From NCBI GenBank assembly GCA_030833665.1, contig JAURGT010000008.1:1-51853 (forward strand): 51,853 nt of DNA, read 5' to 3'. The notes under the pieces are model-generated. The model ran no database searches. It was given only the letters and a program-made list of their open reading frames with translations, and was not told the DNA's origin. This DNA comes from Miltoncostaeales bacterium (GTDB lineage Bacteria; Actinomycetota; Thermoleophilia; Miltoncostaeales; Miltoncostaeaceae). This document shows, piece by piece, positions 18,993-26,471 of this stretch; within the stretch, counting starts at the first letter, position 1; every line of letters begins with the position of its first letter. Both the position numbers and the translations under genes were made by a program.

Positions 18993-19483
18993 GCGGCCGC
19001 ACCCGGGCGATCGGCATCGCCATCGTGGCGTGCGGCGCGCTGATGATGGCCCTGCCGGCGCTGCCCTGGTACGGCGCATCGCTTCCCACCGGCAACGCGT
19101 CTCTCACCGGCTACGGCGCCGGCGGCGCCTCCTGGATCCTGCCGGTCATCGGCGTCGCCCTGGTGGTGACCGGGGTGCTCGCCGTGTGGTGGTCTATGCG
19201 GCCGGGAACCCGGGGCGCGCGCGTGATCGGCGGGCTGGTGATCCTCTGGGCCGTGCTCGGCGTGGCGTGGTCGGCGCTCGTGGCCCTCGCACCGCGCGTC
19301 GAGGTGGTGGCCGAGCGAGCCGGGCTTCCCGAGGCCACCCTCGCGGGTGAGTGGGCGGTGAACGTGTTGCCCGCGGCCTGGGCCTGCCTCGCGGCTGCCG
19401 CCGTGGCCGGGATGTCCGGGATCCTCTTGATGACCCCCCGGCCCGGTGACGTGCCGGCAGACGAGGCGGTTGAGGCCCCCTAG
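18989..19483 (+). CDS. Small four-helix membrane protein, unknown function
   Basis: 164 residues, starting at GTG 18989 within the stop of the DUF2079 gene. Four hydrophobic segments are visible (about 7-24, 48-67, 78-97 and 128-147) with a Trp-containing loop after the first (LPWYGASLPTGNASLTGYGA). The overall layout recalls Trp-rich small membrane proteins of Actinobacteria, but I cannot name a family. It is the last gene of the operon. Its TAG shares the palindrome CTAG at 19480-19483 with the stop of the convergent penicillin-binding protein gene. Confidence 0.6.
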   Translation: MSGRTRAIGIAIVACGALMMALPALPWYGASLPTGNASLTGYGAGGASWILPVIGVALVVTGVLAVWWSMRPGTRGARVIGGLVILWAVLGVAWSALVALAPRVEVVAERAGLPEATLAGEWAVNVLPAAWACLAAAAVAGMSGILLMTPRPGDVPADEAVEAP

Positions 19484-21684
19484 GGGGTGGTGGGGGTCGT
19501 CGGCGGCGGTGCCGGCGGCGGCTCAGGCGGCGGTGCAGGTGCAGGTGCAGGTGCAGGTGCAGGTGCAGGCGCGGGCGCGGGCGCCGGTGCAGGTGCAGGC
19601 GCAGGCGCAGGCGCCGGCGTGATCGTGGTGGGGCCCGTGGTCGGGGCGGGCCGCGGCACGGTCGTGGTCGTGCCCGGCTTGGTCTTGGTCGTGGTGGTCT
19701 TGGCGGTGCTGGTGCTCTTCGCCGAGCTCACCATGTAGGAGCCGGCCGACTCGGTGAAGTCGGACGAGAACGCCGACCATTCGACGGGATCCTTCGGCAG
19801 CGGGAACTCGAGGCCGGCGTCCTTCTTCGCGGCGACCTTCATGAAGTCGGCCCAGATCCGCGCGGGGAACGTGCCGCCGGCCACCGTGATGCCGTGCACG
19901 CTCGTCATCGAGCGGCGCACGCCGTCGTCGTTGGGATACCCCACCCACACGGCGCACACGTAGCGCGGCGTGTAGCCCACGAACCACGCGTCGGTGTAAT
20001 CGTCGGTCGTGCCGGTCTTGCCCGCGACGTTCGGCGCGATGTTCGCCGCCGTGCCGGTCCCGCTGGTGACGTTGTCGCGGAGGATTCGCGTGACCTCGTA
20101 GGCCACGCCATCCTGGAACACCCGGGTGCGCTTCGGCGTGGCGAGGTCGCCCTTGGGGATTCCCTGCCCGAGGTCGGTCATGGCGATGGGCTTCACACGG
20201 AACCCGCCGTTGGCCAGCGGCGCGTAGGCCGCGGCCATCTCGAGCGGGCTCACCTCACCCGAGCCAAGGCCGATCGACGGCACCACGGGAAGCTCGCTCT
20301 GCACGCCCATGTCATTGGCCATCTGCACCACGCGGTCGGGCCCGACGTCGAGCGTCATCTGCATGTACACGGTGTTGTCGGACGCCAGCGTGGCGGTCGA
20401 GATCGGCACGGCGCCACGGTATGAGTTGGAGTAGGTGGCCACCTTGACCGGTCCCCACTTGGGGTCGTTGATGTCGATGGGCCGGCTGTCGTAGACCGTG
20501 GAGTACGGGTTGATGCCGTCTGCGATGGCGCGGGTGAGAACGAAGGTCTTGAAGGTCGATCCGGGCTGGCGACGGGCCTGCGCGGCGTAGTTGAACTGGC
20601 TGTCCTTGCCGTACTCGCGGCTGGTGGCCATGGCGCGGATGTAGCCGGTGCGGGCATCGATGAGCACCACGGCTGCCGCGGGGTCGCCCTCCTGCCCGAG
20701 GTTGCTCGCGATGGCCTGCTCGGCCGCGCGCTGCAGCTTGGGATCGATGGTGGTGCGCACGGCGAGGCCGCCGTTCTGCACGCGCTCGTCGCCGAAGCGG
20801 TCGATGAGCTCCTGCCGTACGTAGTCGAAGAAGTAGCCCTCACGCTTGCGCTCGTAGGTCTTGCCGCGCTTCAGCTGAAGGTCGGATGCCTTGGCCTCAT
20901 CGGCCTCGGACTGCGTGATGTAGCCCTGGTTCGCCATCTCCTGCAGCACCACGTTGCGACGGGCCGTGGCGTCCTCCGGGTTGACGAAGGGGTTGTACGC
21001 CGAGGGCGCCTGCGGCAGGCCCGCCAGCAGGGCGGCCTGCGGCAGCGTGATGGCCCACACCGGCTTGTCGAAGTACGTCAGCGATGCGGCCTGCACCCCC
21101 ACGGAATTCTGGCCGTAGAACACGCCGTTCAGATACTTCGCGAGGATCTGGTCCTTGGTGTACCGGCTCTCGACCTCCCGCGCGAGGTGGGCCTCCTTGA
21201 TCTTCTGCGCGAAGTCGCGCGGCGCGTCGGGGTCGTAGAGGTTCTTGACCAGCTGCATGGTGATGGTGCTGCCGCCCTGGCGGAGGCCGTCGTTGTCCAT
21301 GGCGTTGCGAACCGCGGCGCCGACGATTCGCACCCAGTCGACCCCGTCGTGCTCGTAGAACCGCTTGTCCTCGATGGCCACGGTTGCCTCGCGCAGGCTG
21401 AGGGGGATGCGCGCAAGCGGGATCTCCGTGCGATTGGTGACACCGGCGATGTACCCGAGCAGCTTGCCGTTGCGGTCGTAGATACGCGAGTTCTGGCCGA
21501 GGCCGACAGGATTCATCTCATCGATGTCGGGCAGGTTGGCCGTCACCGATTGGTAGCTGGTGGCGAGCGCAACTCCCAGCGCCGTGCCCAAGACGAGGAG
21601 CGCCATGAGGATCACCCGGCCGAGGCCGATGCGCCCGTGGCGCGCGCGGTCCTCGCGCCGCCGCCGGAGACGGCCGATCTTCAT
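19480..21684 (-). CDS. Class A penicillin-binding protein (GT51 transglycosylase + transpeptidase)
   Basis: About 734 residues with ATG 21684. A cytoplasmic basic stretch, one membrane helix (about 23-43), then GT51: catalytic Glu105 in TVAIEDKRFYEHDGVDW and GGSTITMQLVKNLY. The transpeptidase has Ser376 in PGSTFK, SDN at 435-437 and KTG at 556-558. It builds and cross-links peptidoglycan outside the membrane. The C-terminal 50 or so residues are a Pro-Ala/Pro-Pro low-complexity tail encoded by GGTGCA-type hexanucleotide repeats. The start overlaps the stop of the small upstream membrane gene (ATGA). Confidence 0.93.
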   Translation of the reverse strand: MKIGRLRRRREDRARHGRIGLGRVILMALLVLGTALGVALATSYQSVTANLPDIDEMNPVGLGQNSRIYDRNGKLLGYIAGVTNRTEIPLARIPLSLREATVAIEDKRFYEHDGVDWVRIVGAAVRNAMDNDGLRQGGSTITMQLVKNLYDPDAPRDFAQKIKEAHLAREVESRYTKDQILAKYLNGVFYGQNSVGVQAASLTYFDKPVWAITLPQAALLAGLPQAPSAYNPFVNPEDATARRNVVLQEMANQGYITQSEADEAKASDLQLKRGKTYERKREGYFFDYVRQELIDRFGDERVQNGGLAVRTTIDPKLQRAAEQAIASNLGQEGDPAAAVVLIDARTGYIRAMATSREYGKDSQFNYAAQARRQPGSTFKTFVLTRAIADGINPYSTVYDSRPIDINDPKWGPVKVATYSNSYRGAVPISTATLASDNTVYMQMTLDVGPDRVVQMANDMGVQSELPVVPSIGLGSGEVSPLEMAAAYAPLANGGFRVKPIAMTDLGQGIPKGDLATPKRTRVFQDGVAYEVTRILRDNVTSGTGTAANIAPNVAGKTGTTDDYTDAWFVGYTPRYVCAVWVGYPNDDGVRRSMTSVHGITVAGGTFPARIWADFMKVAAKKDAGLEFPLPKDPVEWSAFSSDFTESAGSYMVSSAKSTSTAKTTTTKTKPGTTTTVPRPAPTTGPTTITPAPAPAPAPAPAPAPAPAPAPAPAPAPAPPPEPPPAPPPTTPTTP
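19532..19616. repeat. Hexanucleotide tandem repeat (GGTGCA/GGCGCA) encoding a Pro-Ala tail
   Basis: Imperfect six-base repeats, purest at 19532-19567 (six near-identical GGTGCA units), translate on the minus strand to alternating Pro-Ala at the end of the penicillin-binding protein. Six-base units keep the frame when they expand or contract, so tail length may vary between strains. Confidence 0.85.
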
Positions 21685-22196
21685 CGCACGGCTCCGGTCA
21701 GGGGGCGGATGTCCCACTCCACGCGGCCGGTGCGGTAGTCGAGCAGGCCGATCACCTGCTCGGGACCGCCCATCACCCGCCCGGACACCACCCAGTTCAA
21801 CTCCTCATCGGGCCGGGCGTCGGCACGCGCCGGCGCGGGAGCGGTGCCGCCGGCGGGCACGGGTACCGCCCACTCTTCGGGGATCGACCTCAGCGATACG
21901 CCCGACGCCACCGCGGGCGCCCCCGCCCATACCTGCGAGGCCTGCCCCATCGCGGCGTCCGCAGTGCCCAGGCGCGGGTTGCGCGAGGCCGTTACCGCCT
22001 CCCAGAGGAATGCCCAGCCCTCGGCCGGATTCGCCAGGTAGTCCGACGCCGGCTCCTCCGCATAGGCCGTGGCGATGAACGACGGAATCCACGCGACCAC
22101 CACGACGCCCGCGGCGATGAGCGCGATGCGCGCTGAACGGGGCATGCGGGATGGACGCTTGGCGGAGTGGGTGGTCATGGCGGCAGCAGCGGGCAC
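21681..22196 (-). CDS. Small single-pass membrane protein upstream of the PBP gene
   Basis: 171 residues if GTG 22196 is used: a TATACT box ends eight bases before it, while ATG 22178 lacks a ribosome-binding site. One helix (about 28-47, IALIAAGVVVVAWIPSFIAT) is followed by an Ala/Pro-rich linker and a short C-terminal globular part (NWVVSGRVMGGPEQVIGLLD, ending VEWDIRPLTGAVR). I know no family. The four-base overlap with the PBP gene suggests co-translation, and a partner or regulator of the PBP outside the membrane is a reasonable guess. Confidence 0.55.
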   Translation of the reverse strand: MPAAAAMTTHSAKRPSRMPRSARIALIAAGVVVVAWIPSFIATAYAEEPASDYLANPAEGWAFLWEAVTASRNPRLGTADAAMGQASQVWAGAPAVASGVSLRSIPEEWAVPVPAGGTAPAPARADARPDEELNWVVSGRVMGGPEQVIGLLDYRTGRVEWDIRPLTGAVR

Positions 22197-23026: not shown

Positions 23027-24025
23027 ATGAGGCTCACCGCGGGCATGCTGGTGCTCGCCGCCGCGATGTTCGTGGCCACGGCGGCGGTGTACGTCACGTC
23101 CTTCACGCTTGCCCCGAACATGTGGATGCGGGTTGCCGCCGTCCTCCTCGGCGCGTTCGCCGCGGCGGGGATGTGGCTCGCGGTGGCCTCGTCGCGGCCC
23201 CTCGCCCGGGTGCGGACCGTGGACATCGCGTGCTCCCTTCTCGCGACGCTGGCGACGTTCTTCCTCTCGCGTGACCTCGGGGTGCAGCCGGTGGTCGCGG
23301 CCTCGCTGGTGCTCATCACCTTCGGCGTCGCGGTCCAGCCGCTCGGGCTGGTCGACGGGCGCGCGGCGCGCGCGGGATTCGCCGGCGTGTTCGTCGGTCT
23401 CATCGGCCCGAGCATCACCGTGCCCTGGTACTGGGTGGCGCTGTCGGGTGCCCTCGCAGGCGTCCTGTGGAGCCGTGTCGGCCCGTCGATCATGCCCGGG
23501 TTCGGCGGCCGCATCGGGCTCGTTGCGTTCATGAGCTCGGTCGTTGCCTATGGGATCGCCGACTTCCTGGGCGGGAAGGGCGATGTCACCCTGCTGCCGC
23601 CCACCGACGGCCTGCCCACCTGGACGGTGGTGCCGGTGGGGGTGGCCGCTGCGCTCGTCACGTGGACGCTCTACAACCGCACCAGCCTCCACTACCTCGC
23701 GTGCATCGGCATCCCCGCGCTCGTGGTGAGCTCGGGCATTGCGCTGGCGCCGAACCTCGGCGCGCAGGGGGCGGTGCTCGCCACGGCATGGCTCGGCGGC
23801 GCCGCACTTGCCGGCACGACCAGCGCGCGCCTTCCCAACGCGGCATGGATCTTCGTGGCCGGGCTGCTGTATGCGGGGCTGATGGTGCGCTTCACCGGCC
23901 CGTATCAGGGCCATGCCGGGGTGATCGGCGTGCTCGCATTGATCGGCGAGCTCGGTACCTTCGCGCTGCGGCGCGCGCTGCAGCGGGTGGCGCCGTGGCT
24001 ACCGGGACAGCCGCGTGTGGCGTAG
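23027..24025 (+). CDS. Polytopic membrane protein, unknown function
   Basis: 332 residues with about ten predicted helices and short loops throughout; glycine-rich turns such as GFGGRIGLVAFMSSVVAYGI. Nothing resembling a catalytic or transporter signature is visible. The repeated halves (roughly 1-165 and 166-332, each about five helices) may reflect internal duplication, but sequence similarity between them is not evident by eye. The last 27 bases overlap the end of the convergent CsoR-like gene. Confidence 0.6.
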   Translation: MRLTAGMLVLAAAMFVATAAVYVTSFTLAPNMWMRVAAVLLGAFAAAGMWLAVASSRPLARVRTVDIACSLLATLATFFLSRDLGVQPVVAASLVLITFGVAVQPLGLVDGRAARAGFAGVFVGLIGPSITVPWYWVALSGALAGVLWSRVGPSIMPGFGGRIGLVAFMSSVVAYGIADFLGGKGDVTLLPPTDGLPTWTVVPVGVAAALVTWTLYNRTSLHYLACIGIPALVVSSGIALAPNLGAQGAVLATAWLGGAALAGTTSARLPNAAWIFVAGLLYAGLMVRFTGPYQGHAGVIGVLALIGELGTFALRRALQRVAPWLPGQPRVA

Positions 24026-24283
24026 GAGCGTCGCGAGCCCCTGCTCGAGCTCCTGCGAGCACATCGTGCCGTCGGCCTGCTGGCACTGGCGCAGGCGCTC
24101 GCCGATGAGGTGCAGCCCCACCTGGTCGAGTGCGGCGGTCACCGCCGCCAGCTGTACGAGGACGTCCTCGCACGCGGCGTCTTCGTCGAGCATGCGCTGC
24201 ACGCCGCGCAGCTGGCCCTCGGCCCGCCGCAGGCGCACCATGATCTGTTCGCGCGTGGGCGGGGTGGACGCGGTCGTGGCCAC
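23999..24283 (-). CDS. CsoR/FrmR-family regulator without the copper His ligand (CstR-like)
   Basis: 94 residues, all helical DUF156 fold, GTG start. Ungapped alignment with the known copper sensor CsoR of M. tuberculosis puts Cys38 (DEDAACEDV) at Cys36, Cys67 (ERLRQC) at Cys65, and Arg63 at the essential His61. Loss of that His with both Cys kept is the pattern of CstR, the persulfide/sulfane-sulfur sensor, so this is more likely a thiol-redox than a Cu(I) sensor. Cys75 is extra. It is the last gene of a trxB-trxA-FmdB operon; candidate C-tract operators lie upstream of trxB and of the MFS gene at 26522. The CstR reading is inference from three positions. Confidence 0.8.
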   Translation of the reverse strand: MATTASTPPTREQIMVRLRRAEGQLRGVQRMLDEDAACEDVLVQLAAVTAALDQVGLHLIGERLRQCQQADGTMCSQELEQGLATLLRHTRLSR

Positions 24284-25842: not shown

Positions 25843-25861
25843 TATACCCCCCCTCCGTATA
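25843..25861. promoter_or_regulatory. C-tract operator-like site upstream of trxB
   Basis: TATA, then CCCCCCCTCCG, then TATA: a C/G-tract flanked by TATA halves, the architecture of CsoR/RcnR/CstR-family operators. It directly abuts the trxB start. The regulator of that family is encoded at the end of the same operon, so autoregulation is the simplest reading. Based on pattern only. Confidence 0.5.
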
Positions 25862-25874
25862 CCGGCCCAAGGTA

Positions 25875-26471
25875 TCAGGTGCGGGAGACGGTGAACACCA
25901 GGCGGTTGCCGGCGCCCCAGGGGCGGCGGGCGGCGGCCCAGTACATGCGCTTCTGCTCGAGCTGGGTGCGCGCGATGCGCCGGGCGTCCTCGAGGGTGAC
26001 GAAGCCCCAGGCGAGAAGCACGCCGATGACCACGCCCTCGGCGGTGCCGCCGCGGCCGAGCACCGCGACGAGGAACAGCAGGGTGGCGCCGGCCGAGACG
26101 AAGAGAAGGATGGCCACGATCGCGGCGAAGCTGCGCCAGTCGCCGGGCGCTGCGGCGAGCATGCGTCGGCCTTCGGCGGGCTGGGCGTCGGGCAGGCGGA
26201 TCGAGGGCAGGCCGCCCTTGCGCAGCCACACCCGGAGGATCGGGAAGAACACCAGGCCGGTGATGCCCGTCATCGCGATGAGCGTGCCGAGCCACCACCA
26301 CGACCAGCCATCTTCCGACGTGGCCTCCAGGATGATCGAGACCGCCACCAGCGCCACCGACACCCCGAGCAGCTGGATGCCGTACATGCGCGCCAGGCGG
26401 GCGTAGTCCCACAGCAGGTCGCGATCGCCCACGCGGACGGCTTTCGGGGTCTTGCGGGTCTTCCTCGCCAC
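25875..26471 (-). CDS. Four-helix membrane protein, unknown function
   Basis: 198 residues, GTG start supported by a TAGCCT box ending eight bases upstream. Basic N terminus (MARKTRKTPKAVRVGDRD), two helices (about 33-48 and 58-80), a cytoplasmic loop, two more helices (about 112-140 and 143-158), and a basic C terminus. I recognise no family. It is divergent from the MFS gene at 26522 with 50 bases between, and a C-tract operator-like site lies in that gap, so both may share a regulator. Confidence 0.55.
   Translation of the reverse strand: MARKTRKTPKAVRVGDRDLLWDYARLARMYGIQLLGVSVALVAVSIILEATSEDGWSWWWLGTLIAMTGITGLVFFPILRVWLRKGGLPSIRLPDAQPAEGRRMLAAAPGDWRSFAAIVAILLFVSAGATLLFLVAVLGRGGTAEGVVIGVLLAWGFVTLEDARRIARTQLEQKRMYWAAARRPWGAGNRLVFTVSRT

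Follow-up and report, generated by a model that had tools for sequence, protein, structure and literature searches.

What does a CsoR-like regulator respond to when its gene closes a thioredoxin operon? The question is raised by a stretch of 51,853 nucleotides from a Miltoncostaeales bacterium (hereafter the window), whose nearest relatives are Thermoleophilia/Miltoncostaeales MAGs and whose host group consists of freshwater bacteria. Here, the genes follow one another in the order trxB-trxA-fmdB-csoR, with csoR last and gaps of 12, 4 and 3 bp (Table 1). These gaps and the conservation of the order agree with the initial annotation, which had placed the csoR-like gene in one operon with trxB, trxA and an FmdB gene. 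The same order is kept in every locus of the trx-linked clade that is long enough (about 50 loci in several genera), a recurrence that argues against a chance arrangement, and it persists even where identity in the regulator falls to 53-57%. The TrxA of the operon is the sole thioredoxin above cut-off in the source genome (88% complete), and each of the 20 genomes of the window's genus has one PF02583 protein. Taken as a whole, the explanation that we regard as likely is that a CstR-like repressor would autoregulate trxB-trxA-fmdB-csoR in response to sulfane sulfur. This reading draws on synteny, on the absence of the copper His, on an operator that is conserved and co-lost with the regulator, and on the occurrence of that operator at persulfide-handling genes. 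The membrane-protein-like ORF upstream of trxB, which matched no Pfam or NCBIfam family, may be co-transcribed with trxB.

Table 1. Features of the trx locus and of the region upstream of trxB (positions in the window)
Feature	Position	Strand	Basis or remark
csoR-like DUF156 gene	24283-23999	minus	GTG start, 94 aa; PF02583 match
FmdB-family zinc ribbon, Cys/His-rich tail GGCGHGGCGCGGH	24535-24287	minus	TIGR02605 and PF09723 above cut-off
trxA, thioredoxin (WCGPC)	24860-24540	minus	TIGR01068 115 bits, above cut-off
trxB, thioredoxin reductase, GTG start	25841-24873	minus	TIGR01292 406 bits, above cut-off
Predicted operator GTATACGGAGGGGGGGTAT	25862-25844	minus	ends 2 nt before the trxB GTG
Overlapping second palindrome ATACCTTGGGCCGGTAT	25859-25875		half-site in common with the operator
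Putative extended -10, TGaTACCTT	25869-25877	minus	comparison of upstream regions
Membrane-protein-like ORF upstream of trxB	26471-25875	minus	conserved neighbour position

In a profile search, the 94-aa regulator matched PF02583 with 75.9 bits (cut-off 22.8). Its AlphaFold2 model (pLDDT 83) comprises three helices (residues 11-33, 38-71 and 76-93), and Foldseek matched the modelled structure to InrS, CsoR, CstR and FrmR with a probability of 1.00. Based on the PF02583 match and the predicted three-helix fold, the protein is a member of the DUF156 / CsoR-RcnR superfamily. Alignment with the PDB chains 4m1p, 4adz and 7mq1 places C38, R63 and C67 at the CsoR/CstR ligand positions. This confirms the initial annotation, which had assigned Cys38 and Cys67 to the two Cys of CsoR and Arg63 to the position of the copper His; a third cysteine, C75, was absent from it. 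The Cys-His-Cys Cu(I) site of copper CsoR is missing from the regulator, which has C38-R63-C67 instead and so displays the residue pattern of CstR, with both Cys and no copper His. Two other identities were rejected. FrmR proteins are recognised by an N-terminal Pro2 and a Cys35, without a second Cys at position 64; the extended N-terminus with Ala2, the presence of Cys67 and a profile score of 40 bits against a cut-off of 133 rule out such an assignment. The Ni/Co sensors RcnR and InrS carry a His at the position of CsoR His61, RcnR having His64 as well, and these were discarded on the basis of Arg63, Cys67 and the profile scores.

Phylogeny points in the same direction as the ligand residues. 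The initial annotation had left it to a tree to decide whether the protein belongs among true copper sensors, and in our ML tree, based on 89 columns and weak in its deep order, the copper CsoR clade (99/99; including 4m1p and 4adz) excludes the trx-linked proteins. These fall on one side of a branch with a support of 94/92 and are likewise excluded from the N63 CstR clade of Firmicutes (99/97), which contains 7mq1. At residue 63, the trx-linked orthologues have R, Q, E, K, G or S, and none has His, so that the copper site is gone throughout the clade. Cys67 is invariant, and Cys75 occurs in all orthologues except one distinct sequence. Cys38 is replaced by Pro or Ala in L061, L062, L063 and L064/G023, where the operon is kept; these regulators form one clade (97/91), and the simplest account is therefore a single loss. 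In the regulator of G023, Cys67 is the only one of the three cysteines to remain, and both the operon and the operator are retained. The CstR ligand pattern put forward in the initial annotation thus holds for the window protein, and the lack of His holds for all trx-linked orthologues, but the two-Cys chemistry is not general for this regulator, since the subclade with Pro or Ala at position 38 has an unchanged operon. A second Thermoleophilia group with R/K63, from families f2, f4 and f6, has a support of 92/93. It includes one His63 protein (L010 / G032) whose genome has an operator before trxA-X-fmdB; as this protein lies inside the R/K63 clade, His there does not necessarily mark descent from the copper CsoRs.

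Given the ligand loss and the tree position, a copper sensor was judged an unlikely identity. A broader variant is that a copper (or Zn/Ni) sensor has been re-wired through Cys38, Cys67, Cys75 and other residues, with FmdB as its metal-binding partner, and would serve to shield thioredoxin thiols from soft metals. Membership of the CsoR family, RicR as the closest NCBIfam profile (with a score far below cut-off) and the Cys/His-rich tail of FmdB are what such a sensor would have in its favour. Yet all trx-linked orthologues lack the copper His while residue 63 drifts among R/Q/E/K/G/S, some have also lost Cys38 or Cys75, and their clade is outside the copper CsoRs, so we regard a metal sensor as very unlikely.

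If the regulator acts on its own operon, its target should be sought upstream of trxB. The predicted operator of the window is the single match in its own genome with up to 3 mismatches allowed, and shuffled window sequences gave 0 matches. The overlapping palindrome is the sole exact ATACC-N6/7-GGTAT match in that genome. Within the window's genus, the usual trxB operator is ATACC-N7-GGTAT, from which the window copy departs by one half-site mismatch. Exact ATACC-N6/7-GGTAT sites were found in 17/20 genomes of the genus, and 16 of the 20 exact sites adjoin the trx operon by their coordinates, compared with one match for the reversed control. A chance palindrome was ruled out by the mismatch-scan, shuffle and reversed-motif controls.

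In other genera of the family (f1), a palindrome ATACCCNNNNGGGTAT precedes trxB, usually directly following a TGCTAGNAT-like stretch similar to an extended -10 element. Exact ATACCC-N4-GGGTAT occurs at trxB in 16 of these genomes, with near-matches in G142 and G147, and the trxB operator is nearly the sole such site in most of them. TGaTACCTT in the window may be the counterpart of TGCTAGGAT, which stands before the operator in related genera; this -10 assignment comes from comparison alone, since a general sigma-70 consensus scan for a promoter found no match. Across the class, the exact site is present in 56/199 genomes and is concentrated in families f1, f2, f4 and f6, while the reversed control motif was found in four genomes with one match each. 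Families f3, f5 and f8, whose sampled CsoRs are copper-type, have no exact site, which also speaks against a metal sensor in the trx operon.

Could the operon instead be constitutive or otherwise controlled, the palindrome being promoter or ribosome-binding sequence and the csoR-like protein acting elsewhere? The window operator overlaps the ribosome-binding region of trxB, which could account for part of its G-run, and the empty sigma-70 scan would also fit such an arrangement. However, in L042, L043, L045 and L046, the motif is shifted upstream by about 39 nt, clear of the ribosome-binding site, and thus is not merely ribosome-binding sequence. Outside the window's genus, conservation of the palindrome is confined to its half-sites, the centres being free. 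G168 provides a natural control: trxB-trxA and the same flanking genes are kept, whereas fmdB, csoR and the palindrome are all lost, the operator having disappeared together with csoR. These observations make a constitutive or otherwise controlled operon very unlikely, and autorepression by the csoR-like protein is very probable.

The genes that carry this operator elsewhere give an indication of the signal. In total, 86 distinct operator sites were annotated, a set gathered from selected families and not a random sample. The idea that all R/K63 relatives adjoin trx genes proved wrong, their gene being located elsewhere in families f2, f4 and f6; likely operator sites in these families nonetheless precede trxA, TlpA-CcdA or SQR-like genes. 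Apart from those at the trxB operon, the annotated sites stand before trxA-X-fmdB (five in f4), DUF302-trxA (two in f2), TlpA-CcdA (four, two of them divergent from fmdB) and SQR-like genes (three in f1 and three in f6), the SQR-like assignments scoring below NCBIfam cut-offs. The R63-type relatives of f6 have the operator before SQR-like genes and before a rhodanese (L173). Another site (L192) precedes a CoA-disulfide/persulfide reductase-rhodanese fusion, and L187 precedes a gene of the MBL fold that weakly matches a persulfide dioxygenase model. In G097, the operator stands before the CoA-disulfide/persulfide reductase-rhodanese gene (TIGR03385 456 bits, below the cut-off of 579, plus PF00581) together with an SQR-like gene, and in G119 before an SQR-like gene. 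The trx-linked protein is the sole CsoR-family protein detected in G097 and G119, although these genomes are 94% and 86% complete, so that a second CsoR could be missing from view. Since CoA-persulfide reductase-rhodanese and SQR-like genes are typical targets of a persulfide response, the predicted sites in these two genomes support the proposed signal. Many other operator sites precede unrelated or unidentified genes.

Outside the window's family, too, FmdB genes are repeatedly found next to the operator (L166, L155, L211, L215, L216 and L148 in f4; L152 and L167 in f2), which suggests a role for FmdB in the sulfur or thiol response. In many f6 genomes, a divergent DUF5658 gene and a gene read as ROK-like flank the same palindrome (L149, L169-L172, L174, L175 and L229).

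Nor is the operator exclusive to sulfur genes, because it also precedes P-type ATPases, a point in favour of a metal sensor: one site (L214) lies before such a gene in G053, of family f4, and in G134 two tandem palindromes (L202) precede a heavy-metal ATPase, the CsoR detected there being copper-type. G134 and G053 have further operator sites at sulfur or trx genes, and it is possible that copper and sulfur regulons overlap in these genomes.

Returning to autoregulation by sulfane sulfur, the circuit that would best fit the locus runs as follows. The reduced regulator would bind the G/C-tract palindrome ATACC...GGTAT over the trxB promoter and block transcription. Rising levels of reactive sulfane sulfur (persulfide or polysulfide) would lead to modification of Cys67, together with Cys38 in most lineages and perhaps with Cys75 too; the modified repressor would leave the DNA, and the operon would be induced. 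The induced TrxB/TrxA could convert persulfides, both those on proteins and those of low molecular weight, to H2S and would probably reduce the repressor as well, closing a negative feedback loop. We infer the DNA binding, the chemical inducer, the reacting cysteines and the reset by thioredoxin. For the last, there is a parallel in the polysulfide sensor SqrR, which is reset by thioredoxin (PMC10044876). ScCsoR of Streptomyces coelicolor needs both of its cysteines (PMC7533328), yet Cys38 is lost in four orthologues of the window regulator, which counts against the circuit. We consider it probable that sulfane sulfur is the main physiological signal.

The window's own genome has the trx site as its only operator site. 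As no SQR homologue was found in the window's genus (0/20 genomes), the sulfur signal is carried over from its relatives, and since the regulon of this genus seems reduced to the trx operon, a general thiol-stress signal is possible. The regulator would then be a thiol-redox sensor through which disulfide stress (diamide-like oxidants, HOCl, quinones) derepresses the trx operon by way of a Cys38-Cys67' or Cys67-Cys75 disulfide, with sulfane sulfur not being the specific signal. In other Actinobacteria, disulfide-stress control is provided by SigR-RsrA. A search of 31 genomes gave no RsrA above cut-off, which leaves a disulfide-stress role open for the csoR-like protein; its absence from these relatives is also weak evidence against SigR-RsrA control of the trx operon, which was set aside. 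A thioredoxin system as the only target in the window's genus is a generic output of disulfide stress, most orthologues have three Cys, and the disulfide form of TTHA1953 loses its affinity for DNA while showing no response to NaHS (PMC10318464). However, operators at SQR-like, CoA-persulfide reductase-rhodanese, rhodanese and MBL-fold genes point to sulfur, and neither peroxidase nor catalase was noticed among the annotated sites. A general thiol-redox sensor is thus rather unlikely.

The closest counterparts of a sulfane-sulfur repressor of this kind differ from it in various ways. CstR of S. aureus, E. faecalis and S. pneumoniae (7MQ1-7MQ3) has the same DUF156 fold and two Cys without the copper His. 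In E. faecalis, its targets include a CoA-persulfide reductase that carries a rhodanese domain (PMC9405070), and in relatives of the window the operator precedes a CoA-persulfide reductase-rhodanese of the same architecture. Unlike CstR, which has Asn at residue 63 in 7mq1 and the Firmicutes relatives, the window protein has Arg; it also belongs to a separate clade, has the core trxB-trxA operon as its predicted target and an extra Cys75, and not all of its orthologues share Cys38. ScCsoR (SCO0620; C37/C66), which is likewise actinobacterial and has the same Cys spacing of 29, binds the operator ATACC-N6-GGTAT, from which polysulfide releases it (PMC7533328), but it controls PDO, a rhodanese and a sulfite transporter rather than thioredoxin, and the operator spacing in the window's genus is N7.

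Regulation of thioredoxin genes by related or sulfur-responsive proteins has also been described, and the novelty claimed in the initial annotation has to be narrowed accordingly. TTHA1953 of Thermus thermophilus, a member of the CsoR family, represses the thioredoxin gene soxW (PMC10318464) and resembles the window regulator in being a cysteine-based repressor of a thioredoxin gene; in contrast to the window operon, soxW belongs to a Sox oxidation cluster far from the TTHA1953 gene, and TTHA1953 showed no response to NaHS in vitro. In E. coli, sulfane sulfur induces trxC through OxyR (PMC6831875), and in S. coelicolor AdpA is a sulfane-sulfur-responsive regulator of thioredoxin genes (PMC9952706), but both are unrelated global activators and not in-operon repressors. 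An artificial E. coli operon with TrxA and TrxB under CstR lowered sulfane sulfur (PMC6831875); it shares a persulfide-sensing repressor over trxA-trxB, with negative feedback on sulfane sulfur, and differs in being a man-made reporter, of which the window looks like a natural counterpart. No published CsoR-family repressor inside a trxB-trxA operon was found in a literature search that largely excluded subscription papers. A thioredoxin system under its own sulfane-sulfur sensor, as proposed in the initial annotation, is therefore preceded by OxyR-trxC, AdpA and TTHA1953-soxW; the apparent novelty is confined to having a dedicated CstR-like repressor of core trxB-trxA in the operon itself. 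The proposal itself is favoured by the predicted operator at trxB, its loss together with csoR and the sites at persulfide-handling genes.

The locus suggests that a dedicated sulfane-sulfur repressor can directly govern the main thioredoxin system of a cell. Its operator, short and conserved, and its small regulator form a pair that can be tested quickly, and the natural series C38/C67/C75, C67/C75 and C67 only bears on how many cysteines persulfide sensing needs. It also gives a hint as to what FmdB proteins do. A bolder reading, which we put forward as a tentative and rather doubtful one, would extend this to a thioredoxin-centred persulfide regulon in Thermoleophilia, with FmdB as an unrecognised component and the G023 protein as a Cys67-only sensor of CstR type that might exchange directly with its own thioredoxin.

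Several minor observations were made in and around the locus. The 3' end of the csoR-like gene is overlapped tail to tail, by 27 bp, by a membrane-protein-like ORF (23027-24025, plus strand) that matched no Pfam or NCBIfam family. Elsewhere in the window, an apparent penicillin-binding-protein-like ORF (19480-21717, minus strand) contains, close to its end, a long alanine-proline repeat. Three contigs titled as a Bifidobacterium breve MAG (L040, L041 and L046) bear a Miltoncostaeales trx operon, and their titles are probably wrong. Outside the trx clade, a locus of an uncultured bacterium (L065:4957-7820) comprises a CsoR-like gene with C38, S63, C67 and C75, preceded immediately upstream by ATACC-N6-GGTAT and followed by a PIN/TPR gene, trxB and trxA, possibly as an independent instance of the same circuit.
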